This document shows positions 1,690-63,500 of a stretch of 64,000 nucleotides of DNA, in pieces; position 1 is the stretch's first letter, and each line of letters begins with the position of its first letter. The notes under the pieces are model-generated. The model saw only the letters and a program-made list of their open reading frames with translations, was not told where the DNA came from and made no database searches. This DNA is from Protonemura montana (Eukaryota; Arthropoda; Insecta; Plecoptera; Nemouridae), in NCBI GenBank assembly GCA_947568835.1, contig OX387612.1:3720001-3784000 (forward strand), written 5' to 3'. A program made the translations under genes and the position numbers.

Positions 1690-4600
1690 ATGGACACGAT
1701 TGGGGTCACAGTTCATGGATACGCCAATCCACTGGGCGACAGCATGCATCCGGATTACCACGAGTCGCGGATTCGAGCCTTGACTACCGACGCCGTATTG
1801 CCGAAGGTCAGTTTCAGGTTTTCGCCAAAATAACAAATTCCCATTGGAAATCGACTGAAATGAATATGGCTGATATGCCTAAAGCGTCCATTCTCAGCGC
1901 TAATATTACCCTGTGCTAATTTACATCACCCTAACGCCAATAATTACACTTAACAGTAAGATAAGTGTTCGTTAACACGGTTTTTAGTTAATTATTCAGT
2001 AACGCTTCGTGCAATTTGTTGTTTTGTCTTCACTGCACTGTGATGATCAACTGACAGCCGATAGGTCTTCTTGATAATGCTTCCACTGTAGCATGTTGAA
2101 AAGATCAATAAACTTTTCAAATTTCTGAACTAAATCAACATCTTCATAGCAATCTAGTAAAAAATATGCTCTTTGAAACGGTAGAATTTTGATGTGGGGA
2201 GATTTTTTTACCTCAATTGAATGTTTTTTACTTTTAATATCTGAACCTTTTTATCAGGCGCAAAATGGCCAATAGATTGCCACGACAATATAGAATAATT
2301 CAATTCTTATTTTTATTTTTTTGTGGTGTTTAACGACGCTCGGTTTTGACATCTGGCCGTGTGGCACTGGTCTAATGGCGTCGGTGAATGAGTGGATAAT
2401 GATGAACCTAACCTAGCTTGAAGGGAGGAGGGGAAAACCGGTGCCGGCACGTAGGGTTCTCCTGTCGAACAGCACAAAGGGGACCACCGGCTGAACGTCC
2501 CTTCCGAAGGACGGTACAACGCGAACAACAGGATTCCTCCACGAATCCATGCTGTCGAGAGGTTGATAAGCAAGGCGAGTGAAGTTGCTGTACTAACTTT
2601 CATGCCTGCAACCTCTCTCCCGAACAGAACTGGTCATGTGTATGATGGTCACACATCCAATACCTGACTCAGCGCAGTGTTGCTTAACTTTCATCCCTCC
2701 AACCTCTCTCCCGAACAGAACTGGTCATGTGTGTGATGGTCACCCATCCAATACCTGACACAGCGCAGTGTTGCTTAACTTTCATCCCTCCAACCTCTCT
2801 CCCAAACAGAACTGGTCATGTGTATGATGGTCACCCTTTATAATACCTGACTCAGCGCAGTGTTGCTTAACTTGCATCCCTCCAACCTTCTTCCCGAACA
2901 GAACTGGTCATGTGTATGATGGTCACCCATCCAATACCTGACCCAGCGCAGTGTTGCTTAACTTCCATCCCTCCAACCTCTCTCCCGAACAGAACTAGTC
3001 ATGTGTGTGATGATCACCCATCCAATACCTGACTCAGCGCAATGTTGCTTAACTTCGGTGATCTCACGAGAACCGGTGTTTCCAACACGACAAACCGTTC
3101 GGTGCTTCATTCAAACTTCAATCCCAAAATTGTCCGAAAATTTGACGTTTCTTCCCGCGCTTTTTATGTCCGCCTGTCGCAAATGGCCGCTTTAGGTTTG
3201 GTTTCATTTTGTCGTGGTTCCAGACGCTCGAGGACTTCCCGTCAAAGATCGACGTCTACCTCGGAGACTGCGATGGCTATTCGCACGACTCGCTCGACTT
3301 GCTTAAGCGCACACGACAGAAGGGCTACTACAAACCAGTTGGTGCGAATAGAGTGACCTGACATGGAGATCCTTAACGCGATACTTCACTTTATTATCGG
3401 ATTAAATTGACTGATTAGTTTATTAATCAATATAGAAGTAAAATATCTAAGATTTAAGATAAAAGATAAGGAGAAACCAGATTATCGAAGCGTCAGTGAC
3501 ATAAGATGTAAACATAATTTAGGTCCGGTATTACAATATTTTTAACTCAGAGTTAAGCTCCTAACTCACAGAAACAGCTGACTCTCACTGAATCTGATTG
3601 GTTGTTGCCATAGCAATTACTCTCACCCTATCTAGAATAAAAGAAGACAGTAATAACGGGTCTTAACGGCAGGTAACTTAGACTTTTTATTCAACTTCCA
3701 TGTCGAACATACTAATTATAATATCAGTATCAATTAAATGACAGTGGCCTGATGCCGTCGGCAAATAAGCGGGTGATGAAAAGGAGAAAAATATGTCTAG
3801 ATTTTATCAGTCCGGAAAACCTGTTGCCGGCACGTATACCCACTTCTTCTGAATCACCGGCTTAACGTCCCTTCCGAAGGATGGTACAACGCGAACAACA
3901 GGATTCCTTCACAAATCCATGCTGTCGAGAGGTTGATAAGCAAGACAAGTGAAGTTGCTGTACTAACTTTCATCCCTCCAACCTCTCTCCCGAACAGAAC
4001 TGGTCATGTGTATGATGGTCACCCATACAACACCTGACCCAGCGCAGTGTTACTTAACTTTCATCCCTCCAACCTCTCTCCCGAACAGAACTGGTCATGT
4101 GTATGATGGTCACTCATCCAATACCTGACCCAGCTCAGTGTTGCTTAACTTGCATCCCTCTAACCTCTCTCCCGAACAGAACTGGTCATGTGTATGATGG
4201 TCACCCATCCAATACCTGACTCAACGCAGTGTTGCTTAATTTTCATCCCTCTAACATCTCTCTCGTACAGAACTGGTCATATGTATGATGGTCACCCATC
4301 CAATAGCTGACCCAGCGCAGTGTTGCTTAACTTTCATCCCTCCAACCTCTCTCCCAAACAGAACTGGTCATGTGTATGATGGTCACTCATCCAATACCTG
4401 ACTCAGCGCAGTGTTGCTTAACTAGCATCCCTCCAACCTCTCTCCCGAACAGAACTGGTCATGTGTATGATGGTCACCCATCCAATACCTGACCCAGTGC
4501 AGTGTTGCTTAACATTTATCCCTCCAACCTCTCTCCCGAACAGAACTGGTCATGTGTATGATGGTCACCCATCCAATACCTGACCCAGCAGTGTTGCTTA

Positions 4601-7600
4601 ACTTTCATCCCTTCAACCTCTCTCCCGAACAGAACTGGTCATGTGTATGATGGTCACCCATCCAATACCTGACTCAGCGCAGTATTGGTTAACTTTCATC
4701 CCTCCAACCTCTCTCCCGAACAGAACTGGTCATGTGTATGATGATCACCCATCCAATACGTGACCCAGCGCAGTTGTTGCTTAACTCCGATTATCTCACA
4801 AGGACCTGTGTTTTTAATGAAATCTATGACGTCAATAGGTTAATGAGCAAGGCGATCAAAGTTGCTGTACCTACAACTTTAGTTACAAACTAACAATTCA
4901 TGATAACAAACATCGGTAATGTAAATGTTCTCGAGGGTATTTGCCCCGCACAACTTTCCGCTCTGTCAATGGTAGGTCACAGACCAAACGGTAAGTCGTG
5001 TTGGAAACACCGGTTCTCGTTAATCACCGAAGTTGAGCATCACTGCGCTGAGTCAGGTATTGGATGGGTGACTATCATACACATGACCAGTTCTGTTCGG
5101 GAAAGAGGTTGGAGGGATGAAAGTTAAGCAACTCTGCGCTGGGTCAGGTATTGGATGGGTGACCATCATACACATGAACAGTTCTGTTCGGGAGAGAGGT
5201 TGGAGGGATGAAAGTCATGGACAGCATTTTCCCTCGCCTTGCTTATCAACCTCTCGAAAGCATGGATTTGTGGAGGAATCCTGTTGTTCGCGTTGTACCG
5301 TCCTTCGGAAGGGACGTTAAGCCGGTGACCCCTTGGTCTTCGACAGGAGTAGGCTACGTGCCGGCACCAAGTTTCCCCTCCTGCCTTCTAGGCTAGGTTA
5401 GGTTCATAATCATCACCATCATCTACTCATTCACCGACGCCATTAGACCAGTGCCGCATGGGTAGATGTCAAAACAGTGCGTCGTTAAACATCACCAATA
5501 AACAAAATAAATTGTAGGTCCCACTGAGATGCATCGACTGCCCATCACGACCTCGATGGACATGGGTTGGTTTCTGAGCGATCCGACGCTGCGCGGCGCA
5601 GGCGCAGAATGGACGCGCAAACGCGTCTATTTCCCGCTGCGCAACAGCTACGAAACTAAGTGAGTTCTACGCATGGGACGTTATTTGCGTGGGAAATACG
5701 TTAAGTTGTAGAATTTTATTTTTTGGGGCTTGGACCAATTTGTTTAAAGCAGCAGATTGCTCTTTAAGACTGCCATGACAACCTTTGTTTCACCCCCTTT
5801 TACTTTCCCATTAAAGATAAGAAAAATATACACTAGGATGACAAAAATTAATATAAAGATTTATTTTTTATTTATTTTTTTGTTTTACTATATGCTTTTT
5901 TTATTTTTACAATTTTTTCAAGTTTATAAGAACTAAATTACTAAAATAAACTTGGCTGGCATTCCTATTATTTACACTCACCTAACCAAACCCTACCCAA
6001 CCCAAACCTAACGTAACATTACCTTACCTAACCTTACCTAAACCAACCTAACCCTAACCTAACCTAACCTTACTCATGCACACACACATTGATATGCATG
6101 CAAATATAAATAAAAAAAAAAAAAATTGGTTAATAAGGAAAACCAATATGATTTTTTTTTTTTTACAGTTTTTTTTTAAGAAAATTGGTGCATGTTTGTA
6201 TGTGCTAGTGCTTGTGCTTGTGCTTGTGCTTGTGCTAGTGCTAGTGCTAGTGCTAGTGCTAGTGCTAGTGCTAGTGCTAGTGCTAGTGCTAGTGCTAGTG
6301 CTTGTGCTTGTGCTTGTGCTTGTGCTTGTGCTTGTGCTTGGGCAAGCACGATGTCAATTGGGAGTAGACTTATCAATAAGTACCATGTTTAAGAGATATA
6401 ATTAAAAGCATAACAGTGATTTTATTTCTGTACTTCATATGCTTTATTACATGTAGTACATTGTAATACCGATGTGCTCGTTAATTTAACTTGAAATGAT
6501 TTGATGTGCTTGAGATGTCTCTTAAAGATAACAGATCGTTTTAGTTTTTTACGAGAGACCGAGATCTTATCTTGGCTAGCAAAATTGGTAATGATGTATT
6601 AGGATGAAATCTTATGTAAATTGCAAACGCTTGCAATGCGCGGGGTATTTTATTATTAACAACACTATAACCGTCTCAAAAATTGATGCCCAAACGCGGA
6701 CTCGAACCCCGATCTCCACCTATCGCGGGTGTTGCTCTGAACCATTGAGCTACTTGGACACTGGCTTTTTGAGACGATTCTAGTACGAGTCCGCGTTTGG
6801 GCATCAATTTTTGAGACGGTTATAGTGTTGTTAATAATAAAATTGGTAATGCTGTGTTTTTTGGTTTTTCTGGCTTTTTTCACACGGGAGTTGAAACCAG
6901 CAAGCGAATTATGGAAAGAAAGCTAGACTGGAGAAAAGTGCTACTGAACCGGGATACGAACCCGGGACAAAAACACTGCAACGATCGTAGATCTAAGGAG
7001 ATAAAACAGAATTCGAGGAAAAGTGACAGATCATTCTGTCCTGTGACCATTCATGGAGTTGCTAAGAACTCGTTCATACGAGTTACCTCGGCCTCTTTCC
7101 TCTTGAAGGGATCCCTGATCTCACCACCGTGAAATCTGGAATATGTGTGTCTGGATAGCTCAGTTGGTAGACCGACCAGCATATGAGAGGTCCTGGGCTC
7201 GTATCCCGGTTCGGTTGCACATTTTTCCACTCTAGCTTTCTTTCTAAAATCGATAGTGTTTTTTATTAGCTTTACCCAATTATCGTCAAAGAAGGATCAC
7301 TTCTTTACAGTAATCTCAATAAGCAATCCATTTATAAAATCATTTTCCTTGACCAACTTTAGATATGCTGGCGACAGATCAAATTTAATACATTTTGTCA
7401 AATTTTTTCTTGTGTTTTTTTATAATTATTTTATCACAAAAAGAAAATCAAAATGTTCTACAAAACAACTTGTCGAAGGTTTTTCCTGTACTTTTCTAGC
7501 TTGACTTTTAGCTTGAACTTTTAATTTTTAACGGAAAAACAAACAAAAACTATTTAATTATTTTCTAACTTAAATTTTAGTGTATATTTCTTGTTTTTCA

Positions 7601-10597: not shown

Positions 10598-10683
10598 CTT
10601 GCAAATGTCTGTAAGATTTCTTCGGAAATCTCTTTCTCTCTTCGCCACTTTCTTCAATGACTTTGACAAACTGCCGCATATTA

Positions 10684-14514: not shown

Positions 14515-15280
14515 ACACCTGTGTCGACACCAGTCCTCGTGGGATTACCGAAGTTAAGCAACACTGCGGTCGGTCAGGTATTGGATGGGTGACCATCATA
14601 CACATGACCAGTTCTGTTCGGGAGAGAGGTTGGCGGGATGAAAGTTAAGCAACACTGCACTGGGTCAGGTATTGGATGGGTGACCATCATACACATGACC
14701 AGTTCTGTTCGGGAGAGAGGTTGGAGGGAAGAAAGTTAAGCAAAACTGCGCTGGGTCAGCTATTGGATGGGTGACTATCATACACATGATTAGTTCTGTT
14801 CGGGAGAGAGGTTGGAGGGATGAAAGTTAAGCAACACTGTGCTGGGTCAGGTATTGGATGGGTGACCATCATACACATGACCAGTTCTGTTCGGGAGAGA
14901 GGTTGGAGGGATGAAAGTTAAGCAACACTGTGCTGGGTCAGGTATTGGATGGGTGACCATCATACACATGACCAGTTCTGTTCGGGAGAGAGGTTGGAGG
15001 GATGAAAGTTAGTACAGCAACTTCACTCGCCTTGCTTATCAACCTCTCGACAGCATGGATTTGTGGAGGAATCCTGTTGTTCGCGTTGTACCGTCCTTCG
15101 GAAGGGACGTTAAGTCGGTGGTCCTCTTGGTGCTCTTCGACATGAGTAGGTTACATGCCGGCACCGAGTTTTCTCTCATCCCTTCTTAGGCGAGATTAAA
15201 ATCATCATCATCCACTCATTCACCGACGCTATAAGACCAGTGCCGAGTGGCCAGTTGTCAAAACAGTGCGTCTCATAAAA
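14515..15280 (+). mobile_element. 5S-derived SINE, five 91-bp units
   Basis: The order is head at about 14530 (GATTACCGAAGTTAAGCAAC), units with AAAGTTAAGC at 14641, 14732, 14823 and 14914 (exact 91-base spacing), body from 15010 and tail GTGCGTC near 15265. Just before the head, 14490-14512 contains GTCGTCGCCTCTGTG, a fragment of the 70-bp satellite. It lies just downstream of the stop of the SLC15-like gene, in opposite orientation. Confidence 0.85.
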
Positions 15281-18400: not shown

Positions 18401-21400
18401 TAAAGCTAGCATCGATATTTCATCCTTATGAGGCAAAGACTACCACAGATAAAGCTTGCACAGATATTTCATCCTTATGAGGCAAAGACTACCACAGATA
18501 AAGCTTGCACAGATATTTCATCCTTATGAGGCAAAGACTACCACAGATAAAGCTTGCACAGATATTTCATCCTTATGAGGCAAAGACTACCACAGATAAA
18601 GCTTGCACAGATATTTCATCCTTATGGGGCAAAGATGACCACAGATAAAGCTTGCACAGATATTCCATCCTTATGGGGCAGAGACTAGCACAGATAAAGC
18701 TGGCACAGATATTCCATCCTTATGGGGCAAAGATGACCACAGATAAAGCTTGCACAGATATTCCATCCTTATGGGGCAAAGATGACCACAGATAAAGCTT
18801 GCACAGATATTCCATCCTTATGGGGCAGAGACTAGCACAGATAAAGCTGGCACAGATATTCCATCCTTATGGGGCAAAGATGACCACAGATAAAGCTTGC
18901 ACTGATATTCAATCCTTATGGGGCAAAGACCACCACGGAAAAAGCTTGCACAGATATTCCATCCTTATGAAGCAAAGACTACCACCGATAAAGCTTGCAC
19001 AGATATTTCATCCTTATGGGGCAAAGACTACCACAGATAAAGCTTGCACAGATATTTCATCCTTATGAGGCAAAGACTACCACAGATAAAGCTAGCATAG
19101 ATATTTCATCCTTATGAGGCAAAGACTGGCACAGATAAAGCTTGCACAGATATTCCATCCTTGTGAGGCAAAGACTACCACAGATAAAGCTTGCACAGAT
19201 ATTTCATCCTTATGGGGCAGAGACTACCACAGATAAAGCTGGCACAGATATTCCATCCTTATGGGGCAAAGATGACCACAGATAAAGCTGGCACAGATAT
19301 TCCATCCTTATGGGGCAGAGACTACCACAGATAAAGCTTGCACAGATATTCCATCCTCATGAGGCAAAGACTACCACAGATAAAGCTTGCACAGATATTC
19401 CATCCTCATGAGGCAAAGACTACCACAGATAAAGCTTGCACAGATATTCCATCCTTATGAGGCAAAGACTACCACGGATAAAGCTTGCACAGATATTCCA
19501 TTCTTGTGAGGAAAGGACTATCACAGATTAAGCTTGCACAGATATTCCATCCTTATGAGGCAAAGACTACCACAGATAAAGCTTGCACAGATATTCCATC
19601 CTCATGAGGCAAAGACTACCACAGATAAAGCTTGCACAGATATTCCATCCTTATGAGGCAAAGACTACCACAGATAAAGCTTGCACAGATATTCCATCCT
19701 CATGAGGCAAAGACTCCCACAGATAAAGCTTGCACAGATATTCCATCCTCATGAGGCAAAGACTACCACAGATAAAGCTTGCACAGATATTCCATTCTTG
19801 TGAGGAAAGGACTATCACAGATTAAGCTTGCACAGATATTCCATCCTTATGAGGCAAAGACTACCACAGATAAAGCTTGCACAGATATTCCATCCTCATG
19901 AGGCAAAGACTACCACAGATGAAGCTTGCACAGATATTCTATTCTTGTGAGGAAAGGACTACCACAGATTAAGCTTGCACAGATATTCCATCCTTATGGG
20001 GCAAAGACTACCACGGATAAAGCTTGCACAGATATTCCATCCTCATGAGGCAAAGACTACCACAGATGAAGCTTGCACAGATATTCTATTCTTGTGAGGA
20101 AAGGACTACCACAGATAAAGCTTGCACAGATATTCCATCCTTATGGGGCAAAGACTACCACGGATAAAGCTTGCACAGATATTCCATCCTTATGAGGCAA
20201 AGACTACCACAGAGACAGCTTACACATGTATTCTATCCTGGATTTTTAGGGATTCGCAAAGCATTTGAATGGGGGAGCTACTCAATGAATTAAATTTTAA
20301 AATAGTTAAGACCACTTTCAAAAGCATTACTCGCGCCTGTCTATGATACATTTCTAAACCGCCAGCGAAAGCTATTTTATATATTGGGAACCACTTTCAA
20401 GAAACATATTCATGATACGAATTGTGCTTTTCAGAATGTTTATCTTAGCTATGATTTAAACTTGCAATTAAACAACTTTAAATTGTGGTCCAATTCCTGG
20501 CTCTGCAACGTAGATGGTTTTTTTAGTTGTTTAACTTTAAATAATTAAACTGAATCTCTTCGGAAACCGCACTGGATTTTTGGCGCAAAGACGAAAAGGT
20601 ACCATTAACCCTTTTTTTTATATACACACAGAAATTAGTGGCCTATCAGCTAAAATCTTCTGGTAAATTCTCAGCCTACCCGACGCGCGGCACTTGAAGG
20701 CGGCTACGATTGACGTCGTGCAATGCGATTGCGTTACTCGCCGGATAGCGCAGACGCACTGCGTAAAGTCTACGCGTGTTGATCACCGTGTATACGCCGA
20801 GCAGGTAGTGAGTGGTGACGTCAGCGACGAGGTGCAGTCTGGTGGTGGACGATGAAACCACTTTGTCGCAGGGCTGCAAGCATTTAAAAATGTTCAAACA
20901 TTCCAATTTTGTTGTGTTTTGTGCTTTTGTCAGCCAATCACGGAGCATTATTTTAACAACCATGTCGGGCACTGAATAAATGATCTTGACTGGCTAACGA
21001 TTATTATTATTATTATTTACGGTGTTTAACGACGCACTGTTTTGACAACTGGCCCTGTGGCACTGGTCTAATTGCGTCGGTGAATGAGTGAGTGGATGAT
21101 GATGAGGATTATGATGGACCCAACCTAGCCTAGAAGAGAGGAAGAGAAACCCGGTGCCGGCACGTAGCCTACTCCTGTCGAAGAGCACCAAGGGGGCCAC
21201 CGGCTTAACGTCCCTTCCGAAGGACGGTACAACTCGAACAACAGGATTCCTCCACAAATCCATGCTGTCGAGATGTTGATGAGCGAGGCGAATGAAGTTG
21301 CTTTAATAACTTTCATCCCTCTAGCCTCTCTCCCGAACAGAACTGGTCATGTGTATGATGGTCACCCATTCAATACCTGACTCATCGCAATGTTGCTTAA

Positions 21401-24400
21401 CTTCGGTGATCTCACGAGACGTTGAATGCTCTTTATTTATATTATGTGCCCGTGCAGATGGTCAATAACCATAGCTAACTCATGGCTACTTCATGGAAGT
21501 AGTAACGAGTAAAATTAAACATAGAAATTTGTCACAATCTTACTGTAAAGATGTCAAACTATTCAATATAAACTCAAACCTACTCTACTGACAGTGACAG
21601 CTGAGACAACGCCTTCTTTGTTACCGCCAGATTCGGAAATCAAGGTGGCCGATGACCGTTAAATTCGCTGTTTCGCTGTGCTAATGTTTGATCGTATTGC
21701 TATTTCAATTGAAGGAAGACCTTAATGAAAGGTTTCGTGTAATTTTACCAAAACTCGAAGCCACTTACCGTTACCCCAGCGCCTCTGAGCTCATCTAAGC
21801 TAAACTTCAGTCTATCCTTGACTGCCAGATTCTTCAGAACGGTGACATTATTTGGGGCGATCACCGCCCTCTGTATTCCCTCAGTCAAGCCTGACAAGGA
21901 GGCGGTGTACGTGCACTCGGTGGGGTTCCACAAGGCAATGTCGCCGGTCTTAGGTGGCCGTGAGGGCAGCGACTCTAGCTCGTCCTACGAGAGAGGATGG
22001 ACCTTTTTTGTGAACTTAAAGGCTGTTTTCGATGAATAAAGTGGATATGAAAAACCAACGCTAATAATTAAAAAACCAGATAATCTTCAAGATCATAACC
22101 AGATCATAATGAAAAGATAATTAATTATTATTATTTTTATATTATTATTAATTATTAATTATTATATTAAAGATTATTAATTATGAAAAGTTGCATTAAG
22201 GATGCTTGAACTAGGTAATTGTTATAATTTTATGTGGTTCTTTTGTTATTGGAAAATTGTCAGGACTGCTCTAACCCTTGAAGAAGTCACTAGTATATGT
22301 TACAAAAAGTCAGGAAATTTAGTAGCCCTTTACTTAGCATTCAAAACCCAGTTCAAATAGTTTTTGTTAAAACTAGTGCTAAGGATAAATCAAGTAGACA
22401 TGAGTCTAAAAACCATCATCACCTGGACGTGGCTCTCAACTTCGAATGCCAGGAAAAATGCTAGCGATGCGAGCGCTGCGCCGACCACTATGCGAAGTTT
22501 CGGCAACCTAAAGAAGTGTTCTTTGTCAAATTGATGGATCGATTATTTCTTGCGAAGGCTAGACACCATACGCAAAGTTCTCTTAAAAAATGTTGCCCTG
22601 TTAAAATGGCTTGCATAGTCCAAATACATCTGCAATCAATGTTTGACTAAAATCACAAATGTTTTAAACTTCAATATAGAAACTATTTACTACCAATTGT
22701 TTAAGAGAGTATGATTATCTAAGTTTCTAATTATTGCCAATTTTAGTTTCTTTTTGTATTTCATTGCCTTAAAAATAACACTAGCCCTTGGTAAGTAACC
22801 TTTTTAAACCCTACAATTACACTTTTCAGTCTTTAAACCTAAAAATACAAATTATTTCTCTTTAGTTCCGGTTGTACTCACCTGCACCATGAAACTTTGC
22901 CTAGCAACGGATAAATAATAGATCGCAGCACAGGTAGCGCTAGCATCGTCGTTAGAGCGAACACAAAAAACATGGCGTCCGGCTCTACGGAAGTGACGTC
23001 ATCGAGGAAACCGTCCATCACCAAACCTTGGTGGATAAATCGCGTGTACTGAAAATAAATCATCTGTCAAAAAATCATAAAACTGCCACCAAAAGTTCAA
23101 ATGGCCGTCCATTTATTTAAAAAAAACTAAGCCATAACAACACTTAATAATCGCTTGACATCCCCGTTTGTTCATCAATTTTTGTGAGGTTATTGGTGTT
23201 TCTAACAACAAAATCAAGACAATTGACTGACCATTTGATCGTGCACAGCCCAGAAGATCGTGAGTGGAGCAAAGAGCACGGCCACTCGAAAAGCTCGACG
23301 TATGCGTAAAACATAAACACCGTCGTCACGCACGACGGCGCATGTCTGAAAAAACATCACCAAATTTTACAAAAAAAAAAAAAAAAAAAAAGTAATGGAT
23401 ATGTTTGTCAAAGTATTTATTTGTATTGCTTGTGTTATTGTGAGAGAGTTGATATTTTTAAGTGAAGGTCTGATCAAACCCTAAACTAATTTGGAAGTAA
23501 ATCAGTAAAGTTGTACTTACCCCAATGAGCAGTATAGTTTCTTTCAAAGTGTTTGCCCTCGAGCGAGTCCACCAGTAAGCACGCGTGACCACGTTGAACG
23601 GCACTGTGACGTGGAGGGCAGCGTGGAAAATTGGTCAAAATACGAAACTTAGCCATTGGTTCCGACCAAATTAGCTTCTGACTTTTTAAACTTGCTTCCC
23701 TTTTTTGTCAGCACACAAGCCACCTGCTTTCGAATTATCATAATAGTAATGTGTGGGTGAAACAATGGTTGTCATGGCAATCTAAAACAAGTAACCCGTG
23801 CCCGGAATCGGGCAGTTCATCACAAAGTAATAGTAATGGGTGGGTGAAACAAGGGTTGTCATGGCAATCTAAAACAAGTAACCCGTGCCCGGCATCGGGC
23901 AGTTCATAACAATAATTTAGACTAGTTTGCAGTTATTTGTGTGCTTCTCAAAGGTTGTTTCGGCTACTTGGTCTCCTTGGTAGTCACCCAGTCCAATGAT
24001 AAGTCCCCCGACGGCCACAACCAGCGCTGCTGGCCAGCACACCGCATCCTTGTCGCAGATCAGGTTCATCCGAAGCGCTGGCAACGCCGCTGCAGCTAAC
24101 GCGAGTCCGACTGCGCTGGCGCCAAGGAGAGCTGTGAGAAAGCTGGTGCCTGCAATCATTTTAAAAACCCACTAACAATTGAATTAACTTGCGAAACGAT
24201 TATTTAATAAATTGGGATTTTTTGAGTGGGAGTTTACTCAGGTCTATTGGAGTGGGTGCTTACTCAGCTCTATTGGAGTAGGAGCTTACTCAGGTCTATT
24301 GGAGTGGGAGCTTACTCAGGTCTATTGGAGGGGGAGCTTACTCAGGTCTATTGGAGTGGGAGCTTACTCAGGTCTATTGGAGTGGGAGCTTACTCAGATC

Positions 24401-27400
24401 TATTGGAGTGGGAGCTTACTAAGGTCTATTTGAGTGGGAGCTTACTCAGGTCTATTGGAGTGGGAGCTTACTCAGGTCTATTGGAGTGGGAGCTTACTCA
24501 GGTCTATTTGAGTGGGAGCTTACTCAGGTCTATTGGAGTGGGTGCTTACTCAGGTCTATTGGAGTGGGAGCTTACTCAGGTCTATTGGAGTGGGAGCTTA
24601 CTCAGGTTTATTGGAGTAGGAGCTTACTCTGGTCTATTGGAGTGGGAGCTTACTCAGGTCTATTGGAGTGGGAGCTTACTCAGGTTTATTGGAGTGGGAG
24701 CTTACTCAGGTCTATTGGAGTGGGAGCTTACTCAGGTCTATTGGAGTGGGAGCTTACTCAGGTCTATTGGAGTGGGAGCTTACTCAGGTCTATTTGAGTG
24801 GGAGCTTACTCAGGTCTATTGGAGTGGGAGCTTACTCAGGTCTATTGGAGTGGGAGCTTACTCAGGTCTATTGGAGTGGGAGCTTACTCAGGTCTGTTGG
24901 AGTGGGAGCTTACTCAGGTCTATTGGAGTGGGATCTTACTCAGGTCTATTGGAGTGGGAGCTTACTCAGGTCTATATCTAGGCTTACTGGATACAACTAA
25001 TCGGCCAAACCACTTGTCCGATCGCGACGAAACAAAAATCTAGGCGACTCATCACACTATTGGCAACATATTGGCGATTTTCAAAATCAAAAATATATTT
25101 TTTTGCTCTAGTTACACGCGTTATATAAGAACCCGTCCAAGGCGTTTTAATTGTGTTAAAAAAAATTGTAACCCTACCAAACTACACAAAAAAAAAACAG
25201 AACTTAATTATTTAAAAAAAACCTTCCTTATTATTTGTGTCCAGTTTTTACATATATTTTAAGACAAGATATTTTAAGACAGACAAAATACAAAACAAAA
25301 ATCCAATGAAACCAAAATTAAATTTTTAGGACTTTTAACAATAAACTGATTAGAAAGGTTAATTTTGTTTCTTGTTTTACTCACGCGTGCGCTGAGGATC
25401 GTCACTTTGGGCGGCCAACTCAATCACTGCCAGATGGATGTATGCTTGTCTTGTCCATCCAGCGCCAGCGCAGAGCAACACGTGGCCGAGTACTGCACCC
25501 GATCTAGCGGTGGCAACGCACACTAAGATCAAGAAATCGAATCTAGCGATGCTATTGTTAATTAAATAACTTTTAAATTTTAATTATTTTATGAAGAATC
25601 CGGTTGGTACATGATACTCAATGGATGTATGGATTGTGGTGTTTAACGACGCACTGTTTTGACAACGGGCCCTGCGGCACTGGTATATTAGCGTTGGAGA
25701 AAACGCAGTCGAAAAGTGGGACTCGTGGGATTTCCCGTCTTTTAGTGCTCCATTAAGTCACAAGCAAACCGTTAACCAACAAAAACATCTTTTGATTCCC
25801 AGAAAAATAACAATTTTCCGACTGGAAAGGAAGCTAGACTGGAAAAATGTGCAACTGAACCGGGATACGAACTCGGGACCTTCCAATTGTCGGTCGGGTG
25901 CACTACCAACTAAGCTATCCGGACACACATATTCTAGCTTTCATGGGGGTGTAATAAGGGACCCCCTGAAGGGGGAAGAGACCGAGGTGACTCGTGTGGA
26001 TGAGTTCGTCAATGGCCACAGGACAGAATGGTCTGTCGCTATTCCTCCAATCCCGGTTATCTCGAAAGATATACGGTTGTTGCAGTGTTTTTTTGGTTTT
26101 TCTGGCATTTTCATAAGGAAGCTTAAACCAGCTTAAACGCGCCGAGATTGAACAGAGGGCCGGGGGACCAGGTGGCAATACGCGAGAGGATGCATCAGCG
26201 GTAATTCGGGGCAGGTACCCAGCTACCTGTACAGTATACATCCGACAGCACACCGGTGAACATCATCGCTCAATTTGTCCATCGCAAATATTGTCTTTGT
26301 TCATCGATTGTATTTCTAGCCAACCGAACAAATAAAATCACGTTATCATCTTGTCTTAACCTGTACAACCCGTGAACCACGCCGCACCCGGCCAAAGACT
26401 GTTACATTCTTAACAGGCCACTGAAAAAACCTATACACGTAATCGGCTTACGTCATAAATCCGTCGAGTCTATCCCAATATGGCGCCAACACAGCAACTA
26501 AAACTGTTGCCAACAGCAACGCATGTCCCATTGTTGCCACCACCGCGCCCGCGTTAGCGCTCAGCTGTTCGTGGCCTTGCAGGACGAAGATCGACAAAAT
26601 AGCCGCCACCGAGAAGATGGCGTTGCTGACGTGGACCATCGCGATGGAGGCGTTCAGCGACCACGAGAGTGCGGTGTAGTAGAACAGGAACGACATAACT
26701 TACCGGAACAGAAGTTAGGCAACAATGAGTTAGGTTGGGTGACCAATATCCATGAGATACATGTAGGTTACGATAAATTAATTAAACTATTGGCAAAATT
26801 TACTTTCTATTTTTTCGACTGGTATTTTCCAGGGCGAGTTAGAAACTTGCTCGAAATCGTCATGTTCTCCACCGGGTTTGCACCAGCTCTGAGCGAGAGC
26901 GCTCTTACTCGAACACGTGATCACTAGTTAGCAGTGCATTCATTTGTGTACCAAATGTATCTACTCGAAATTCTCGGGGTGCACTGGGAGTGACCCGAGA
27001 GCGAGCAACTCTGCCAGTGGAACACGTGAAAGTTGCACTGGGGCAGAGTCACATGCCCAGTTGAACACGTGAAAGTTGCACTGGGACAGAGTCACATGCC
27101 CAGTCGAACACGTGAAAGTTGCACTGGGGCAGAGTCACATGCCCAGTCGAACACGTGAAAGTTGCACTGGGACAGAGTCACATGCCCAGTCGAACACGTG
27201 AAAGTTGCACTGGGGCAGAGTCACATGCCCAGTCGAACACGTGAAAGTTGCACTGGGACAGAGTCACATGCCCAGTTGAACACGTGAAAGTTGCACTGGG
27301 ACAGAGTCACATGCCCAGTCGAACACGTGAAAGTTGCACTGAGACAGAGTCACATGCCCAGTCGAACACTTGAAAGTTGCACTGGGGCAGAGTCACATGC

Positions 27401-36085: not shown

Positions 36086-36119
36086 TTTGAGTAATAAATA
36101 TCTACATTTTAATTTTAAT

Positions 36120-36915: not shown

Positions 36916-36919
36916 GTTT

Positions 36920-39588: not shown

Positions 39589-39589
39589 T

Positions 39590-46939: not shown

Positions 46940-48412
46940 GCAAAAAACTCTGTGGCAATGGTCTGATAATGGTAACTTTTATCAGGTGGGTGATGATGAT
47001 GAGGATGATGATTAACCTTACCTAGTCTAAAATGGAGAGTGGAAAATTTGGTGCTGGCACGTAGCCTACTCATGTCGAATAGCATCAAAGGAACCACCAG
47101 CTTAACGTCCCTTCCAAAGGACGGTTCAACGTGAGCAACAGGATTCCTCCACAAATCCATGCTGTCGAGAGGTTGATAAGCAAGGCGAGGGAAGTTATTG
47201 CACTAACTTTCATCCCTCCAACCTCTCTCCCGAACAGAACTGGTCATGTGTATGATGGTCACCTATCCAATACCTGACCCAGCGCAGTGTTGCTTAACTT
47301 TCATCCCTCCAACCTCTCTCCCGAACAGAACTGGTCATGTGTATGATGGTCACCCATCCAATACCTGACCCAGCGCAGTGTTGCTTAACTTTCATCCCTC
47401 CAACCTCTCTCCCGAACAGAACTGGTCATGTGTATGATGGTCACCTATCCAATACCTGACCCAGCGCAGTGTTGCTTAACTTTCATCCCTCCAACCTCTC
47501 TCCCGAACAGAACTGGTCATGTGTATGATGGTCACCCATCCAACATCTGACCCAGCGCAGTGCTGCTTAACTTTCATACCTCCAACCTCTCTCCCGAACA
47601 GAGCTGGTCATGTGTATGATGGTCACCCATCTAATACCTGACCCAGCGCAGTGTTGCTTAACTTTCATCCCTCCAACCTCTCTTCCGAACAGAACTGGTC
47701 ATGTGTATGATGGTCACCCATCCAATACCTGACTCAGCGAAGTGTTGCTTTACTTTCATCCCTCCAATCTCTCTCCCGAACAGAACTGGTCATGTGTATG
47801 ATGGTCACCCATCCAATACCTGACCCAGCGCAGTGTTGCTTAACTTTCATCCCTCCAACCTCTCTCCAGAACAAAACTGGGCATATGTATGATGGTCACC
47901 CATCCAATACCTGACCCAGCGCAGTGTTGCTTAACTTTCATCCCTCTAACCTCTCTCCCGAACAGAACTGGTCATTTGTATGATGGTCACCCATCCAATA
48001 TCTAACCCAGCGCAGTGTTGCTTAACTTTCATCCCTCCAACCTCTCTCCCGAACAGAACTGGGCATATGTATGATGGTCACCCATCCAATACCTGACCCA
48101 GCGCAGTGTTGCTTAACTTTCATCCCTCTAACCTCTCTCCCGAACAGAACTGGTCATTTGTATGATGGTCACCCATCCAATATCTAACCCAGCGCAGTGT
48201 TGCTTAACTTTCATCCTTCCAACCTCTCTCCCGAACAGAACTGGTCATGTGTATGATGGTCACCCATCCAATACCTGACCCAGCGCAGTGTTGCTTAACT
48301 TTCATCCCTCCAACCTCTCTCCCGAACAGAACTGGTCATGTGTATGATGGTCACCCATCCAACACCTGACCCAGCGCAGTTTTGTGCTGATCTCATGAGG
48401 ACCAATGTATTA
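46940..48412 (-). mobile_element. 5S-derived SINE with the longest unit array (about 13)
   Basis: Tail remnant and body at about 46940-47200 (GTGCTGGCACGTAGCC, ACGTCCCTTCCAAAGG), then about 13 units of 91 bases to 48385, then a head remnant (CTCATGAGGACCAATG). Each unit retains the 5S A-box/intermediate/C-box order. It ends about 140 bases before the myristoylated first exon of the kinase gene. A separate plus-oriented SINE tail (GTGCGTCGTTAAACCTCAC) lies at 48475-48515. Confidence 0.85.
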
Positions 48413-51500: not shown

Positions 51501-54500
51501 ATGGCTTGCCAAACAAAGCTTGCAGTCCATGCTGTTGTCCAGCTCAAGACAAGGCTTGCCAAACAAAGCTTGCAGTCCATGCTGTTGACCAGCTCAAGAC
51601 ATGGCTTGCCAAACAAAGCTTACAGCCCATGCTGTTGTCCAGCTCAAGACATGGCTTGCCAAACAAAGCTTGCAGTCCATGCTGTCGTCCAGCTCAAGAC
51701 ATGGCTTGCAAAACAAAGCTTACAGCCCATGTTGTTTTCCAGAAGTTACGATGATATTTACTTTAGCTACTCGTGGTTTCAAAATCTTATCTGTGAAGTT
51801 ATAAGAAGGGTCGTTGTGCGGTCGAGACTTGTTCATGTTTAGCTATGTTGAAGTTATGTGAAGAATTACGAGACACTGACATGCATTCGACGCGGTCTGC
51901 TGATCTCGTGCTCACTTTCTGATGCAAGTTTCCGTGTGGATGCCTCGTTGAAAAAAACATTTTAACAAGTTTCGTTTTTGCACTGCAAGTAAGTTTCTAG
52001 AGAGCAAACCCGATTGAAAAATTCCCCGCAGCTTATGGCTCTGGGTAACCACTTTGCCATTCCATATCTCAGTTATTTTTTTTTCAATTTCACAACTATT
52101 TTCTTTTTTCAAAGCAATTTCGATCGTGAAGTCGATCGAAAATTTGCCAGTAGAACGGTTTTTTTAAATCTTATGGACACCAGTTAGACTAGTATTGCCA
52201 TAACGTTTTGATATTTAAAGATAAACTGATTTTCCTTTATATAACAGGAACAGAGAGCTACAATTAGTTTACATGGTGATCATATTGCATCTGATTTCAA
52301 TTGCAAACGCTTGCAATGCCCAGTTAAAGCCGAATGTCAAATTGGAGTTATTCGAGTTTGACAGGTTGTGACGTGATATAGCGTCACTAGAATTAGAATG
52401 ACTGTGAGTATTCACAGCCACTTGGTTCTACTCTTTGGAGAACTGTCATTCTCATCAAATACACTAAAATCGTCTGTACAAATTATAAACCAAGTGATGG
52501 TAAAATCAACTAAAAACTGATTTAACCACCGAAGTTTAGGGGCAATTTTAATATTGCAGTAATTTGCTTTAAAACAATGATATTTTAATAATTGCAAACC
52601 AAGAAACTATGACAACACACGAAGAACAAGAATAAAATAGTTTTTAACAATGTTTTTGCTTGGAAACGGAATATTTGGTGACTTGGAAATACAAACAAAA
52701 TATCAATGTGACTTCTTACTTTGACCTCCAAATGACAGTTTAAAAGTTAAACCCCGTCCTTCCAGGTTCAAATATTAAACGGTGATTTGGACAGAGAGAA
52801 AATAGTGACGGCTGCTAAATAAAATTAAGTTCTGTAACAGGTCAAAGCCCTTATAACGCATTGCCAAACTCTTATTTCAATTTTTACCTCCTTTGTGAGT
52901 CCATCTAAAAAATCTCTGTTCAAATATTTTTCGATGACGGATAAACAGTGAAAAACAATTTCCCGAAGATCTTCCAAATAGATTTATACGGCGTTGGTAA
53001 AATCTACGATAGCTTGGAGTTCTTTGATAAATCAAATTCGTCAAGATTCAAGCACCACGGTTTTACCACCAACTGGCAGCTCTTAGATCGACCTGATGCG
53101 GAGGTACAAGCTAGATTTTATGCACTTTTCCGATACCACGCAGTGACGATAGTAAAAACTGGCTGGCAAGTAAATCTAGGTCGCCGGTGTCGATGCCGGG
53201 ATACTTCCGGCCGCACCCGACCTTGGAACAAGCAAGCTTGTTGACGCCGTGACCCCAGTTGCCAAGGGTAACCCTTATTTTAAAGGGATGGTGGGTGGTA
53301 GGGTCACGGAAGTTACCGTTTAGAGGAAAAACAACTCCGTGGAGCTCTTCGATCGTCCCTTGAAGATGCCTGGATTGACGATGGTATGATTTGCATTTTA
53401 TGCAATACTTGCAATTAAATTTTCAAGAGTGAAGTACCCTGTCACTGAATGTCCAGCACAGAGGCGACGGCGAGTGTTCGCTCCTTTGCGTGGAGTGAAA
53501 CAAGCGCCCTGTCACGGAATGTCCAGCACAGAAGCGACGGCGAGTGTCCGCTCCTTTGCGTGGAGTGAAACAAGCTCCCTGTCACGGAATGTCCAGCATA
53601 GAGGCGACGGCGAGTGTCCGCTCCTTTGCGTGGAGTGAAACAAGCTCCCTGTCACGGAATGTCCAGCATAGAGGCGACGGCGAGTGTCCGCTCCTTTGCG
53701 TGGAGCGAAACAAGCAGCCTGTCATGGAATGTCCAGCACAGAGGCGACGGCGAGTGTCCGCTTCTTTGCGTGGAGCGAAACAAGCAGCCTGTCATGGAAT
53801 TTCCAGCACAGAGGCGACGGCGAGTGTCCGCTTCTTTGCGTGGAGCGAAACAAGCACCCTGTCACGGAATGTCCAGCACAGAGGCGACGGCGAGTGTCCG
53901 CTCCTTTGCGTGGAGCGAAACAAGCACCCTGTCATGGAATGTCCAGCACAGAGGTGACGGCGAGTGTCTGCTCCTTTGCGTGGAGCGAAACAAGCACCCT
54001 GTCACGGAATGTCCAGCACAGTGGTGACGGCGAGTGTCCGCTCCTTTGCGTGGAGTGAAACAAGCACCCTGTCACTGAATGTCCAGCACAGAGGCGACGG
54101 CGAGTGTCCGCTTCTTTGCGAGGAGCAAATCATGCAACGATCTAGGCTACTTTTATTTTATATAACCTATATTTTTTTTGCGAAGTCATGGAAATAGGAT
54201 CATAGATAAAAATGCTCATTGTCAATTGACATGCAAATGATGCTTAAAGAGGTTAAAGAATGAGACCTCGGAATTCCAAAGATAAATTCAGTAAAGCTGT
54301 ATTGAAGTCTTTGTAGCTTAGAACTATCTAAACGTTTAACTTATTTTTTGAGTAATTTGTGGTTTCAATTTTCTAGCCCAATACTGGGCCATGGTCTTAA
54401 TCAAACCGAAATATAACCATCAATCCAGATTACTTTCCCTGGCACCGATCGGTTGGAAACAGCGGTTCCCGTGAGACCACTGAAGTTAAGCAACACTGCG

Positions 54501-57500
54501 CTGAGTCACGTAATGGGTGGGTGACCATCATACACATTACCAGTTCTGTTCGGGAGAGAGGTTGGAGGAATGAAAGTTAGTACAGCAACTTCACTTGTCT
54601 TGCTTATCAACCTCTCGACAACATGGATTTGTGGAGGAATCCTGTTGTTCGCGTTGTACCGTCCTTCGGAAGGGACGTTAAGCCGGTGGTCCCCTTGGTG
54701 CTTTTTGACAGGAGTAGGCTACTTGCCGGCACCGGGTATCCCCTCCTCTCTTCTAGGCTAGGTTAGTTTCATCATCCACTTATTTACTGACGCTATTATA
54801 CCAGTGCCGCAAGGCCAACATATTTTAACTAACATTTTATAGAGGAGATATGAAAATGTTAATTCGGAGCCAGAGTGAACTATAAGTCCGTTATTTTTGG
54901 TAAGCTAATTCTTGCTTTTCAAGCTTTGACGTTTAGGTGGTAAGGTGTGGTAAGAAAACCTTCCTTTTTGTTACAAATATTTGTGTCTGTTTTTTGTTTT
55001 CAGAGCGTTCTGCGTCAAGCCACGAGCTTCGGCGATGGGGGGCTGACGACGACGCCGGCCCCCCCAACGACGGCGCTGAAGAAACAGGGCGTGTCCGGTG
55101 AGAGCTCAGACGTCAGTCAATTGGCGGCCGACGATATCGTCGTTCAGCATCACGACAAAGACTTCAGGTCGGTCCAAGGAAAGAATCATCGATCCTTGAT
55201 CGCGATCCTTGTTGGTCCTGGATAATTGATTATGAGGTCGTTGATTTCCATGATTAACCGCAATCACACAAGAGAAAGTTTGGATTTATTTTGGTTTCTA
55301 AACTCTTACTTATGTATCGAGTTCAAATATATATATATATTTATAAACTGGAGTTTTTTAATGCTAAGGAAATCCTCTAATTTTGCCGAAGTTAGGCATT
55401 TTTTGCCTTTTTGGGGGAAAAAATTAGGCTTTAAATGCGAATCTTCTGGGAATTTTTGTTAATTTACGAACCATACAAAACGCGTTTTTATTTATTTTCT
55501 TTTCAACGTTGGGATTGTTTTTTTGCCACAGGGCACGACCGTTTCTTTCCCAAGTCGGTGCATTACTGCATCTACCAGCCCAAGCTACCGAGGCTAGTTC
55601 TACTAACTTGAACCTAAAAATGGAAGAAATTACTAAACTCCAGTAGGCACGCTTGAGGTCCCTGACATTCCATTGTTTCATAGTCTTTTGAGAATCATTT
55701 AAGATGTAAATACAAATATTACATGTAAATTATGGCCTGTAGGTATATTTTCTTATTTGTAACTTGATAAGCGATTTATTTTCAACGCCCAGTGTCAGTT
55801 TTATATTTTTGCAAGCCATGCACATGACTTGGGTCTTATGGCCGGGTCTAAGCCACTTTCTTGAGGGATTGGCAGCACTGTCAACAGAGGTGAAAGTGCA
55901 GTTAAAAGCACTTTTAACATCAGTGCTGTGACAGTAACTAAACCTGTTATCCCGTCTGCACAGCTGTCCCATTGAACTACTTCTAAGAGAATTGGGACTT
56001 TGTCGCTTAACTTTTCGTGGTTCCAAGTTTCAGAGGATGGTTGTGTAAGTTTTGACACAAACTTTGAGGCCAAGCTTTCGTTTCTGCAGCCATGCAAGGT
56101 AACAGAAGTGACCTTGTAGTTGCTACTGACCACAATGCACCAGCAATCTAGGCTGAAAAAACTAACTATGATGGGGCTAAAGTATACTTGGTGATTAAAT
56201 TGACGTTTAGGTGTGTTTTAAATAAACATCTTAAGGTAGTGGTTTGTTAGAAATAGATAACTAGTTGTTGATCTGTCTGGCACTGTATAGTCTTAAGTAG
56301 TTGTTGAAATTGTTTGACCGGTAAGTCCATAGCGAGGACTTTATCTGCACTTCTATATTTGTGATATTTTGGGGTATTTGAGACAAAAAAATCGATAAAT
56401 CGCCACATCCCTGTGGCGTTCCCGACTGGCCAGCACCGGGGTGGGTTTCAAACTTGTTCAAAAACGTCATGCTTTCCAATGGGTTAACACTTGCTCCAAG
56501 CGAAAGCGCTTCCACCCAAACACGTTATTTAAATTCCACTGTCAAAATTCTCGGAGCAAGAAAAATGCAAGTGACCCGAGAGCGAGCAACTCTGCCAGAC
56601 GAACAAGTGAAAGTTGAACTGGAGCAGAGCCACATGCCCAGTCGAACACGTGAAAGTTGAACTGGGGCAGAGTCACATGCCCAGTCGAACACGTGAAAGT
56701 TGCACTGGGACAGAGTCACATGCCCAGTCGAGCACGTGAAAGTTGAACTGGAGCAGAGCCACATGCCCAGTCGAACACGTGAAAGTTGCACTGGGGCAGA
56801 GTCACATGTCCAGTCGAACACGTGAAAGTTGCACTGGGACAGAGTCACATGCCCAGTCAAACACGTGAAAGTTGCACTGGGACAGAGTCATATGCCCAGT
56901 CGAACACGTGAAAGTTGAACTGGAGCAGAGCCACATGCCCAGTCGAACACGTGAAAGTTGCACTGGGACAGAGTCACATGCCCAGTCGAACACGTGAAAG
57001 TTGCACTGAGACAGAGTCACATGCCCAGTCGGACACGTGAAAGTTGCACTGGGACAGAGTCACATGCCCAGTCGAACATGTGAAAGTTGCACTGGGACAG
57101 AGTCACATGCCCAGTCGAACACGTGAAAGTTGCACTGGGACAGAGTCACATGCCCAGTCGAACACGTGAAAGTTGCACTGGGGCAGAGTCACATGCCCAG
57201 TCGAACACGTGAAAGTTGCACTGGGACAGAGTCACATGCCCAGTCGAACACGTGAAAGTTGCACTGGGACAGATTCACATGCCCAGTCGAACACGTAAAA
57301 GTTGCACTGGGGCAGAGTCACATGTCCAGTCGAACACGTGAAAGTTGCACTGGGACAGAGTCACATGCCCAGTCAAACACGTGAAAGTTGCACTGGGGCA
57401 GAGTCACATGTCCAGTCGAACACGTGAAAGTTGCACTAGAACAGGGTCATATATTCAGTCGGAAACGCCATAAGTTATATAGAAAAGACAGATTTTAAGC

Positions 57501-60500: not shown

Positions 60501-63500
60501 AATTCAAAATACCCGAAAATTACCATGATAGAGAGGTTCTAGTCCCATGAAAAATAAATAGCTGTTTTTCCTTAAAATAATAAATAATAAATTCCTTTTA
60601 CAACAGGATTTTTAATTAATTTCTAAGGAGGTTGTAAGTCTTATAGGCTAGGTAAGAACAGGACATAGGCGAGATTTTTGTGATAATAATCTTAAAAGTC
60701 TAAAAGCTTCTCAAAATCAAAACACAAAACCAAACTTACAGGATTTACAAAAAAAAAAAAATATAATAAAAAAAATATATTTTAAAAAAAAATGTTTATT
60801 TAGCAAATTTTATATAAATAAGAGTAAAATAAAGTGACAGTTACAAGCCGTGTCTCGTTTGACAGGAGTTTTACCCGGAAGGAGCATACATCATTCGTCA
60901 AGGGGCGCACGGCGACACTTTCTTCATCATCAGTGGCGGTTGTGTCAAGGTCACTCAAAGGATTCCAGGACACAGGGACCAGGAGGAAGAGATCAGGACC
61001 TTGCAACGCGGCGACTACTTCGGCGAACAGGTGCGAATCAAACGCCGATTAGCTGCTGAATACTTGACTGATTACCTCGCTGATTACCTGAATAGGATGA
61101 CAAGGATTTAGAGTTTACAAAAAAATTTAAATTTCCACAGAAATAATATGAAATCTTGTTCGGGTACGTAACGGAATGATTTGGTATTCGATTCTTGGAT
61201 TCATACAATTTTCTTCAGTAGCATCATGCCTCTTTATACAGAAGATATTTTAAAATTTGGTCTAGGATTTAGGAGAAAATATTAAATTTGTGCTTCAGCA
61301 TATCTTTGAAAAGTAAATTTTTCAGAACAACATTCTATTAAGTAGTCAAACATCAACTCCAGTGATGGCATTTGGTGCGGATCCATAACTTTCACATCTG
61401 GAGAATACTCCAGGCGCCAGATCCACAAGGGAGAGTTGAAAATGAACCCCAGAGCCTAAAAATAATCTGGAATTTGAAATTTAGATGCGTTTTTGACACC
61501 GTCGCTTAGAATATTACTGCTAGATTTATTGGGGTTAAGCTTTGTGGATCATATGGATCATATGGATAGTATGGATCACATGGATCATATGGCCCAAGAG
61601 GCATATGGATCATTTGAAGACATCATCTCATGGATCATATCGCTTTTAAAACTCGCATTATTTATCGTTTTTCATAGTTTTTGACAGATGAAACTAAACT
61701 GAATTTGATGGAACTGTTATCGTAGAATTGTCAGGACTGCTTTCACCATTGATAAAGTAACTAGTACAAGTTACAAAACGTCGAGAAATTGAGTTGTTCT
61801 TCACTTGGCATTCAAAACCCAGTTCAAATAGATTTTATCAAAACTAGTGCTAAGTTTAGAGAAAGTAGACATGAGTTTAAAAAACCTTCAGATGGCCGAT
61901 ACCTACCGCCATGCCTATCGATAACATCCTACTTCGATAACAGAACTCATTTTATAGAGATGGACTTCCTGCGTACCACTTCTAGGTATGTGGTTATCTG
62001 ATGATAATATGGAGTCACTCTCAACCTGGGCCAAGGAGTTGTGTTTACCCCTAAATATATGCCCTTGTAGGGTGGATTCTCACCTGTTCACCTTGTGTTT
62101 TCTAGGCTCTGTTGAACGAAGAATGTCGCACTGCAAGCATCGTCGCCTTGCATCCAGGGGTCGAGTGTCTCACCTTGGACCGAGACTCGTTCCGGCAGCT
62201 CATCGGCGAGCTTCAGGTATTAATACAGGAATTACTCTTAAAATTCTTGGCAACGTCCCAATTTATTGACAGCTGATATATTGCTAGGAAATTCATCAGA
62301 GACATTTCGAAATAGTACTAATGATTGGTGTTAAGCAACACTGCGCTGAGTTAGGTATTGGATAGGTGACCATCATACACATTACCAGTTCTGTTTGGGA
62401 GAGAGGTTGGAGGGATGAAAGTTAAGCAACACTGCGCTGGGTCAGGTGTTGGATGGGTGACCATCATACACATGATTAGTTCTGTTCGGGAGAGAGGTTG
62501 GAGGGATGAAAGTTAAGCAACACTGCGCTGAGTCAGGTATTGGATGGGTGACCATCATACACATGACCAGTTCTGTTCGGGAGAGAGGTTGGAGGGATGA
62601 AAGTTAGTCCAGCAACTTCATTCGTCTTGCTTATCAACCTCTCGACAGCATGGATTTGTGGAGGAATCCTGTTGTTCGCGTTGTAGCGTCCTTCGGAAGA
62701 GACGTTAAATCGGTGGCCGCTTTGGTCTTCAACACGAGAAAACTACGTGCCGGCATCGATTTAAATTTCAATTCAAAAGGCCAATAAAATAAATGTCTAA
62801 GAAACGTAATTTTATGGTAATTTGAATCAATTAGCTAAGTTTAATTACATTGCAGGAATTATTTTATTCCTTTTTCCATTATTATTATTATTTTTATAAT
62901 TATTTTATTTTAATTGCAGGAACTGCAAGGCAAGGACTACGGGGATACGACAAGAGTCTTGTCACGTCCTTCAAGCTCGTTCAGCATCAACGCGGACCAC
63001 GGAGACGTGGGTACGTATGGGTTTTTGAGAAGAAAACAAAGGAAAAATTGTTTATTTAAAAGAAAACTGCCTCTTGCAGACTCACCTTCATGGTCACAGC
63101 TAATCAGATGCTTATATTTGCATCTTAAGATCTTTGTTTCATCGGTCCGTTTAGAATATAACAGTCTGTTAGTTTATTAATTGCTTAGCAACAGCCAATC
63201 AGATTTTTTTTTTTTTTTATTTGTTAACAGTCTCATAATTATTTGACATAACTTTTAAAATCTGGTCTCATCGTCACCAACTCATTCGCCGACGCCATAA
63301 GACCAGTGCCAAATGACCCGTTGACAAAACAGTGCGTCGTTAAACACCACAGATCAATTAATTGTGCAATCAAAGCACAGTTTTATCACAAATAAAGTAG
63401 TACGTCGGGCATTTTTGTCAATAGTTTGTTTATATTTGTCCATTTTTTTATCCACGTTTTGTCCATATTTGTATCCATATTTTGAATGGTCCATATTTGT

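Follow-up and report, generated by a model that had tools for sequence, protein, structure and literature searches.

The stretch analysed here (the window) comprises 64,000 nucleotides from the stonefly Protonemura montana (assembly GCA_947568835.1, contig OX387612.1, positions 3,720,001 to 3,784,000 of the forward strand). It contained ten copies of a short interspersed element (SINE) headed by a 5S-derived sequence; the parts of the element are a head of 48 nt, units of 91 bp and a body of some 280 nt. The copies, numbered e1 to e10 in order of position, are listed with the other features of the window in Table 1. Arrays with a period of 91 were detected by Tandem Repeats Finder at 2594, 3964, 5030, 14551, 34840, 38437, 47204 and 62330. 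Two 5S motifs taken from an earlier note on this sequence occurred 51 and 50 times in the window with at most one mismatch, compared with 5.7 and 0.19 occurrences expected after shuffling.

The number of units was highly variable across copies. The earlier note had counted one unit at 21 kb, about five at 14.5 kb and about 13 at 47 kb, and parsing of the copies gave 1, 5 and 12 plus a partial unit, respectively. Its statement that the number differs in every copy was too strong, since two copies have 5 units and two have 1; a fixed unit number was found neither in the window nor at the further loci described below. The head and the fixed body that had been ascribed to each full copy were likewise not general. 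Only part of the head was present in five copies and no head was found at 62.3 kb. The body was clearly shortened at 3.9, 47, 54.5 and 62.3 kb, and the copies at 34.8 and 38.4 kb lacked it.

The head together with the first unit of three window copies exceeded the gathering score of the Rfam 5S model. The 47 candidates for true 5S genes in the genome all scored between 108.7 and 117.5 bits. When head and unit were aligned to the genome's own 5S sequence, a check proposed in the earlier note, the alignment spanned 5S positions 1 to about 93, with unit position 1 at 5S position 49. The local score was 100, compared with at most 25 in 500 shuffles. With box positions in Xenopus numbering, identity was 13/15 in the box A region, 4/6 in the intermediate element (IE) and 13/18 in box C. 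Because the unit departs from the 5S sequence after GACC, the match to box C covers the core but stops short of the final letters. The proposed 5S origin of the SINE was confirmed by both the Rfam matches and this alignment, and the control region claimed for each unit is there, with counterparts of box A, of IE and of the core of box C. The 5' part of the element is 5S-derived and carries box A, IE and box C, as in SINE3 elements.

Among the matches listed, the 5S genes at G000:C11:70-105743 recurred about every 9.5 kb in the first 50 kb that the list covers; each period holds three positions, of which one lies on the other strand.

The whole genome (258 Mb in 34 contigs) was searched for the junctions of the element with up to three mismatches. 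Head-unit junctions were found 8,738 times, unit-unit junctions 26,529 times and unit-body junctions 9,290 times; reversed patterns, used as controls, gave no match. By rough hand calculation there were about 2.9 unit-unit junctions per unit-body junction, and the units made up about 1.2% of the genome. Exact searches showed that the position lists of the mismatch searches were incomplete, and counts were therefore used instead of densities. An apparent enrichment at chromosome ends and a strand bias near C1:30-31 Mb were artefacts of these lists and were discarded. At C1:990202-994478 exact positions suggest a single array with some 47 periods that keep almost the same phase; only its body end was read (L038).

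The loci that were read (L numbers) had been chosen non-randomly. They comprised the window, stretches at 1.0 Mb from 14 of 20 scaffolds (the other six contigs being too short) and one stretch of C1, a further 18 stretches of C1 picked by junction or unit positions, and stretches of C2 picked by an exact head-unit match (12), by the second junction described below (4) or by another form of the head (9, short). Besides the window, the reading covered about 180 kb chosen by place and about 54 kb from loci found by searches, some of which overlap. Copies in the window and in the place-chosen scaffold stretches had 1 to 15 units. Ten of the 12 head-unit loci on C2 carried single-unit copies with at least part of the body, one a single-unit copy truncated at its 3' end and one a 92-bp register. 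The many single-unit copies at C2 loci indicate that such copies are common and that the family is a mixture. A head variant (CTCATGAG versus CTCGTGAG) at first looked like a strong indicator of a multi-unit subfamily, but its G form had itself served to pick many of the loci. As six of the nine loci with the A form were single-unit too, the marker was dropped.

The second register has a period of 92 bp and consists of the head and the control region. A genome-wide search allowing up to three mismatches gave 2,340 occurrences of its GACC/head-start junction, and many of the listed exact places were spaced by 92 bp or multiples thereof. At L063 six 92-bp units were followed by 91-bp units, both registers being contained in one element. 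L064 carried four 92-bp units followed by head, unit and body in a near-full element, and L065 carried 92-bp units as in L064 with unit and body fragments. Both registers include the segment homologous to the 5S control region (A), and the plan of the element would be [head-A]m, head, [A-B]n, body, tail. At many loci part of the SINE was repeated head to tail with at least four units. In most copies read a head preceded the array and/or body and tail followed it, and the terminal unit was longer and continued the SINE to its end.

Pairs of copies in opposite orientation, abutting or close to each other, were noted at L038, L043 and L047 and at 3855-5502 of the window. Those of L043, L047 and the window stood head to head, which may reflect 5' inversion or preferred insertion. 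At L030 (7207-7685) a copy with a duplicated body stretch of about 42 nt adjoined another tandem array.

Flanking sequences were compared for 21 near-full copies. Matches of at least 7 nt were found in nine of them and in 13 of 420 mispaired flanks; the other 12 copies had shorter matches only. Target-site duplications were present in a single-unit copy (L053, 14 nt) and in a two-unit copy (L034, 11 nt), and a 7-nt flank match of e3 was also scored as such. The copies with at least five units in this set, L027, L033 and e1, had matches of just 5, 4 and 6 nt. Target-site duplications, as in SINE3 elements, indicate retrotransposition. In most full copies the tail was followed by CAAATAA-type repeats. 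The tRNA-headed repeat of the window had a tail region of 65 nt in common with the 5S-derived SINE (body 213-277, 88% identity, E=5.6e-20), as expected if both SINEs use one long interspersed element (LINE). The body of the 5S-derived SINE may resemble the conserved Nin central domain of the Nin-DC SINE superfamily.

Site 22 of the unit, which was excluded from the patterns used for choosing loci, linked arrays at independent loci with each other. Single-unit copies had A at this site in 15 of 17 cases (G and C once each), whereas the last units of arrays had G in 18 of 25 (p=2e-5). The first units of headed arrays differed from the last units (p=0.012), with G in 3 and A in 9 of 12. Independent expansion of single-unit copies would give A throughout, and array-bearing sources or exchange between loci must therefore be involved. 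Outside C2 the direction was the same with few copies, G being found in none of four single-unit copies and in 17 of 24 arrays.

Local duplication within arrays was evident as well. Rare variants were common to units of the same array in 92 pairs, compared with a mean of 14.4 and a maximum of 35 in 2,000 permutations, and in 65 of these pairs the units were one to three apart. Without the top three arrays 65 pairs remained (10.0 expected, maximum 22). Such variants occurred in 16 of 25 arrays. By eye, blocks of two or three units were repeated in L019, L020 and e8, in the last case a duplicated two-unit block. Units were 0.951 identical within arrays and 0.943 between arrays, the permuted maximum being 0.948. 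The earlier note had proposed repeated expansion after or during insertion. The shared rare variants uphold local duplication, but site 22 and the presence of one junction at thousands of places make the arrays look inherited too. Arrays seem to have been both inherited through retrotransposition and locally reshaped.

The element is thus probably a 5S-derived, LINE-dependent SINE in which founding duplications occurred, arrays were inherited by retrotransposition and unit number changed locally. A few founding tandem duplications would have given rise to the 91-bp (A-B) and the 92-bp (head-A) arrays, and the array-bearing elements would then have been copied by retrotransposition and have passed on their arrays. 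At each locus, slippage or unequal exchange between units would keep changing the unit number. RNA polymerase III (Pol III) would transcribe the element from the head-proximal promoter and read through the array, and a LINE recognising the shared tail would mobilise it. Several results speak against this explanation. The site-22 test is partly confounded with place, as 13 of the 17 single-unit copies are on C2 while 24 of the 25 arrays are not, and gene conversion between loci could spread the G as well. Nine of the 25 arrays had no shared rare variants. A body tree of 45 copies was star-like, with no starred branches and with single- and multi-unit copies intermixed; their clustering was weak (12 changes versus 15.3 in shuffled sets, values as low being reached in 32 of 500 shuffles with the single label and in 39 with the multi label). 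The motif AAGTTA stands at the start of the unit and at the start of the body, exactly 91 bp apart and followed by a second shared stretch, AGCAAC. The body holds direct repeats that equal or exceed AAGTTA in length, and 7-nt repeats there were without comparable arrays, so that microhomology alone does not explain the choice of the unit and was rejected as the sole cause of amplification. Finally, no partner LINE of the 5S-derived SINE was found.

According to the earlier note, a single element offers many transcription factor sites. Multiplication of the promoter might be adaptive, additional type-1 promoters raising TFIIIA/TFIIIC occupancy or supplying upstream context, as the tandem monomers of mouse LINE-1 do, and array-bearing sources out-competing single-unit ones; this is rather doubtful. 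It would be in line with the presence of the whole of segment A in both registers, and with the finding of two or more units in 27 of 51 copies that had units and no less than 150 nt of body, compared with a duplicated body stretch in just 2 of 56 copies (one of which, e2, may be a rearrangement). Multi-unit copies also differed a little less from their own consensus (0.046 versus 0.058, p=0.026). This difference is confounded by the choice of loci, and no correlation of unit number with divergence was seen among the 12 place-chosen copies (rho 0.17, p=0.59).

Use of the internal promoters was assessed from 5' ends, for which 43 copies with units were taken from the window and from L019-L050; the geometry of box A predicts an internal start near unit position 44. 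Twenty copies began at head positions 1-5, ten deeper in the head and nine in a unit; three were cut by the locus edge and one began with a body fragment. The nine ends in units lay at about positions 1, 3, 11, 26, 38, 53, 57, 62 and 63, and none of the 43 copies started at unit 41-48. Internal initiation was therefore not accepted as a reading of the 5' ends. An apparent cluster of ends at unit 1-4 was mostly caused by degraded heads missed by BLAST. Among 215 units the control region showed no stronger conservation than the remainder (p=0.44), and without CpG and site 22 its minor-variant frequency was 0.032 versus 0.025 in the rest (p=0.30). Such a result is expected of copies that are dead on arrival and says little about source elements. 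A TTTT run was absent from the single-unit consensus and present in 5 of 22 near-full copies, which makes read-through of the array plausible. The idea of many used promoters per element thus gained no support so far.

Site 22 corresponds to 5S position 70 within the IE, where the 5S gene has G, and this part is presumably contacted by TFIIIA. Judged from the sequence, the 5S letter in most array units and its absence from most single-unit copies is the one hint linking arrays to promoter quality. The hint is opposed by the first units of headed arrays, which lie nearest to the likely start and mostly have A. The richness of the window in other tandem arrays without a recognised promoter also counts against an adaptive role. 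Kapitonov and Jurka, as cited in PMC3272025, proposed that 5S-type promoters rely more on upstream signals; retroposed copies may therefore be weak. In mouse LINE-1, younger subfamilies have more monomers and a second monomer enhances activity (PMC9022269). A wider proposal, that the SINE multiplies its own Pol III promoter and transmits the array, with 5S-like G units accumulating within arrays and offsetting the lost upstream signals and promoter dosage becoming selected, heritable and rapidly tunable as a Pol III counterpart of the mouse LINE-1 monomers, is quite unlikely. Most likely, the multiplied promoters are a by-product.

Unit number might instead change during retrotransposition, with reverse transcriptase jumping between the AAGTTA at the unit start and that at the body start. 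The spacing of exactly 91 bp and the shared AGCAAC argue for such jumps. The 7-nt body repeats without comparable arrays argue against them, as do the 92-bp register, at whose junction no such repeat was seen, and the blocks of two or three repeated units, which fit exchange between DNA molecules better. This mechanism is considered unlikely.

It is quite improbable that each array grew separately, as an ordinary minisatellite, by slippage or unequal crossing-over after insertion of a single-unit copy. In-situ duplication is apparent from the shared rare variants and block repeats, and the window contains many unrelated arrays with units of 26-129 bp. Separate growth from copies of the A type is, however, at odds with the G at the ends of most arrays, and identity within arrays barely exceeded that between arrays. 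Nor did unit number rise with divergence (rho -0.25, p=0.10 for all 45 copies; rho -0.11, p=0.56 for the 28 copies without the C1 set), and an increase with age was rejected. Capture of a dispersed minisatellite by an unrelated SINE, or its insertion beside one, is highly improbable: arrays without head or body do occur (L019, L020, L023 with one end cut by the locus edge, e6, e7 and C1:60690-64436), but the unit is a 5S control region that follows the 5S head without a break, and single-unit full copies such as L053, some with target-site duplications, are complete SINEs that largely refute it.

An inherited and locally reshaped array has partial parallels among known elements. Closest are the squamate SINE-derived satellites (sSat1-3) of Vassetzky, Kosushkin and Ryskov (2023; PMC10702118), which occur at thousands of loci in most snakes, have up to nearly 950 units and include a 67-nt snake unit made of the head end with box B and some body. 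As here, part of a SINE is in tandem in a largely uniform register with a variable number of units, sub-variants alternate, and an extended terminal unit continues the SINE. Those SINEs are derived from transfer RNA (tRNA) and have a type-2 promoter, of which the snake unit holds box B only, whereas the unit described here holds 5S-type box A, IE and core of box C. In addition, many copies retain both a head and a body, and the promoter segment is common to two registers. PMC10702118 invokes unequal recombination; in P. montana there is evidence that the element also takes its arrays along when it moves. The earlier note knew of no comparable multiplication of a promoter. For the 5S-type control region no earlier example was seen among the titles and abstract starts listed, but SINE-derived satellites containing box B have been published (PMC10702118).

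Tandem repetition of a retrotransposon promoter with a copy-specific number is also known from the 5' untranslated region of mouse LINE-1 (PMC9022269). That promoter belongs to a LINE, is transcribed by RNA polymerase II (Pol II) and has measured activity, whereas the present SINE has a putative Pol III-type promoter. HaSE3 of Helicoverpa armigera, a SINE3 element, has a 5S head with box A, IE and box C and a body and tail in common with a tRNA-derived SINE; no tandem units are reported, and the word "tandem" is absent from the main text of PMC3272025. In the limpet Patella caerulea the satellite PcH-sat arose from part of an invertebrate SINE (Nin-SINE), but from its 3' part without boxes A and B, and it is mainly pericentromeric (PMC11121367). 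No 5S-derived SINE with a tandem control region was found in titles and abstract starts among the matches listed from the open-licence literature, which is weak evidence of absence. One paper on the plant element Cassandra has its long tandem arrays as title subject (PMC7215508). Cassandra and its nemertean counterpart Ajax are terminal-repeat retrotransposons in miniature (TRIMs) and, like the present element, mobile with a 5S-type internal promoter; they are long terminal repeat (LTR) elements in which the repeat is the LTR, whereas the SINE has a tail and target-site duplications and no LTRs were seen in it (PMC10886601).

That pieces of SINEs become tandem repeats was already known, and what appears new is that a whole promoter apparently travels as an array. 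New here is a SINE-derived array that holds a type-1 promoter, occurs in two registers and lies within mobile copies. SINE-derived arrays are usually regarded as by-products on the way to satellites, while here the array sits inside otherwise full elements. A single element family therefore provides a natural series of one to dozens of promoters. Such a series could be used to test how 5S-type promoters add up and whether, in elements other than those of Pol II, the number of promoters affects the success of a retrotransposon, and it could show how minisatellites spread through a genome from a mobile element.

Table 1. Features of the window (positions are those of the 64,000-nucleotide stretch)
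Feature	Position	Strand	Units	Description
SINE copy e1	2318..3103	-	5	Complete head, complete body and tail; Rfam 5S_rRNA 56.4 bits over 2983-3103
SINE copy e2	3855..4870	-	9	Body fragment and degraded head upstream; body 1-115
SINE copy e3	4983..5502	+	2	Head, body and tail; head-to-head with e2
SINE copy e4	14527..15272	+	5	Partial head (from about head 25); units from 14551; body to 266
SINE copy e5	21021..21419	-	1	Partial head (from about head 33); body
SINE copy e6	34840..35488	-	6 + partial	Head; 55 nt of seventh unit; without body
SINE copy e7	38392..38802	-	3 + partial	Head; 45 nt of fourth unit, then second head (92-bp register junction); without body
SINE copy e8	46986..48411	-	12 + partial	Partial head; one further unit without its first 8 nt; body 1-221
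SINE copy e9	54452..54817	+	1	Partial head; body to 247
SINE copy e10	62330..62758	+	3	Head not found; body 1-161
tRNA-headed SINE-like repeat	25637..25924	-		tRNA match 31.2 bits; no tRNA call by ARAGORN
70-bp tandem arrays	10946-12344, 32945-33555, 40249-41137, 53432-54126			Unit also in L020
26-bp tandem arrays	24224-24975, 41685-44038			173 bp of right flank in common (86%)
43-bp tandem arrays	27014-27543, 56595-57449			25 bp of flank in common
50-bp tandem arrays	36917-38006, 50778-51742			
49-bp tandem array	18400-20239			
Further tandem arrays	30335-32277; 57860-58844; 16852-17566			
tRNA-Ser (CGA) predictions	1324-1399, 6685-6760, 60249-60327			

A common element behind the other arrays of the window was considered and rejected, as a long shared flank was present just in the two 26-bp arrays. 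The other arrays are many and have large numbers of units that vary from array to array, and tandem expansion looks general in the genome of P. montana. A 114-bp tandem unit recurred in L026 and L029. The first two predicted tRNA-Ser genes lie in a stretch of 184 bp that is 91% identical between them, and they may thus belong to a dispersed repeat instead of being plain genes. Two open reading frames, at 8960-9844 and 12747-13574, encode a chitin-binding peritrophin domain (PF01607), and the former contains long threonine-rich repeats.

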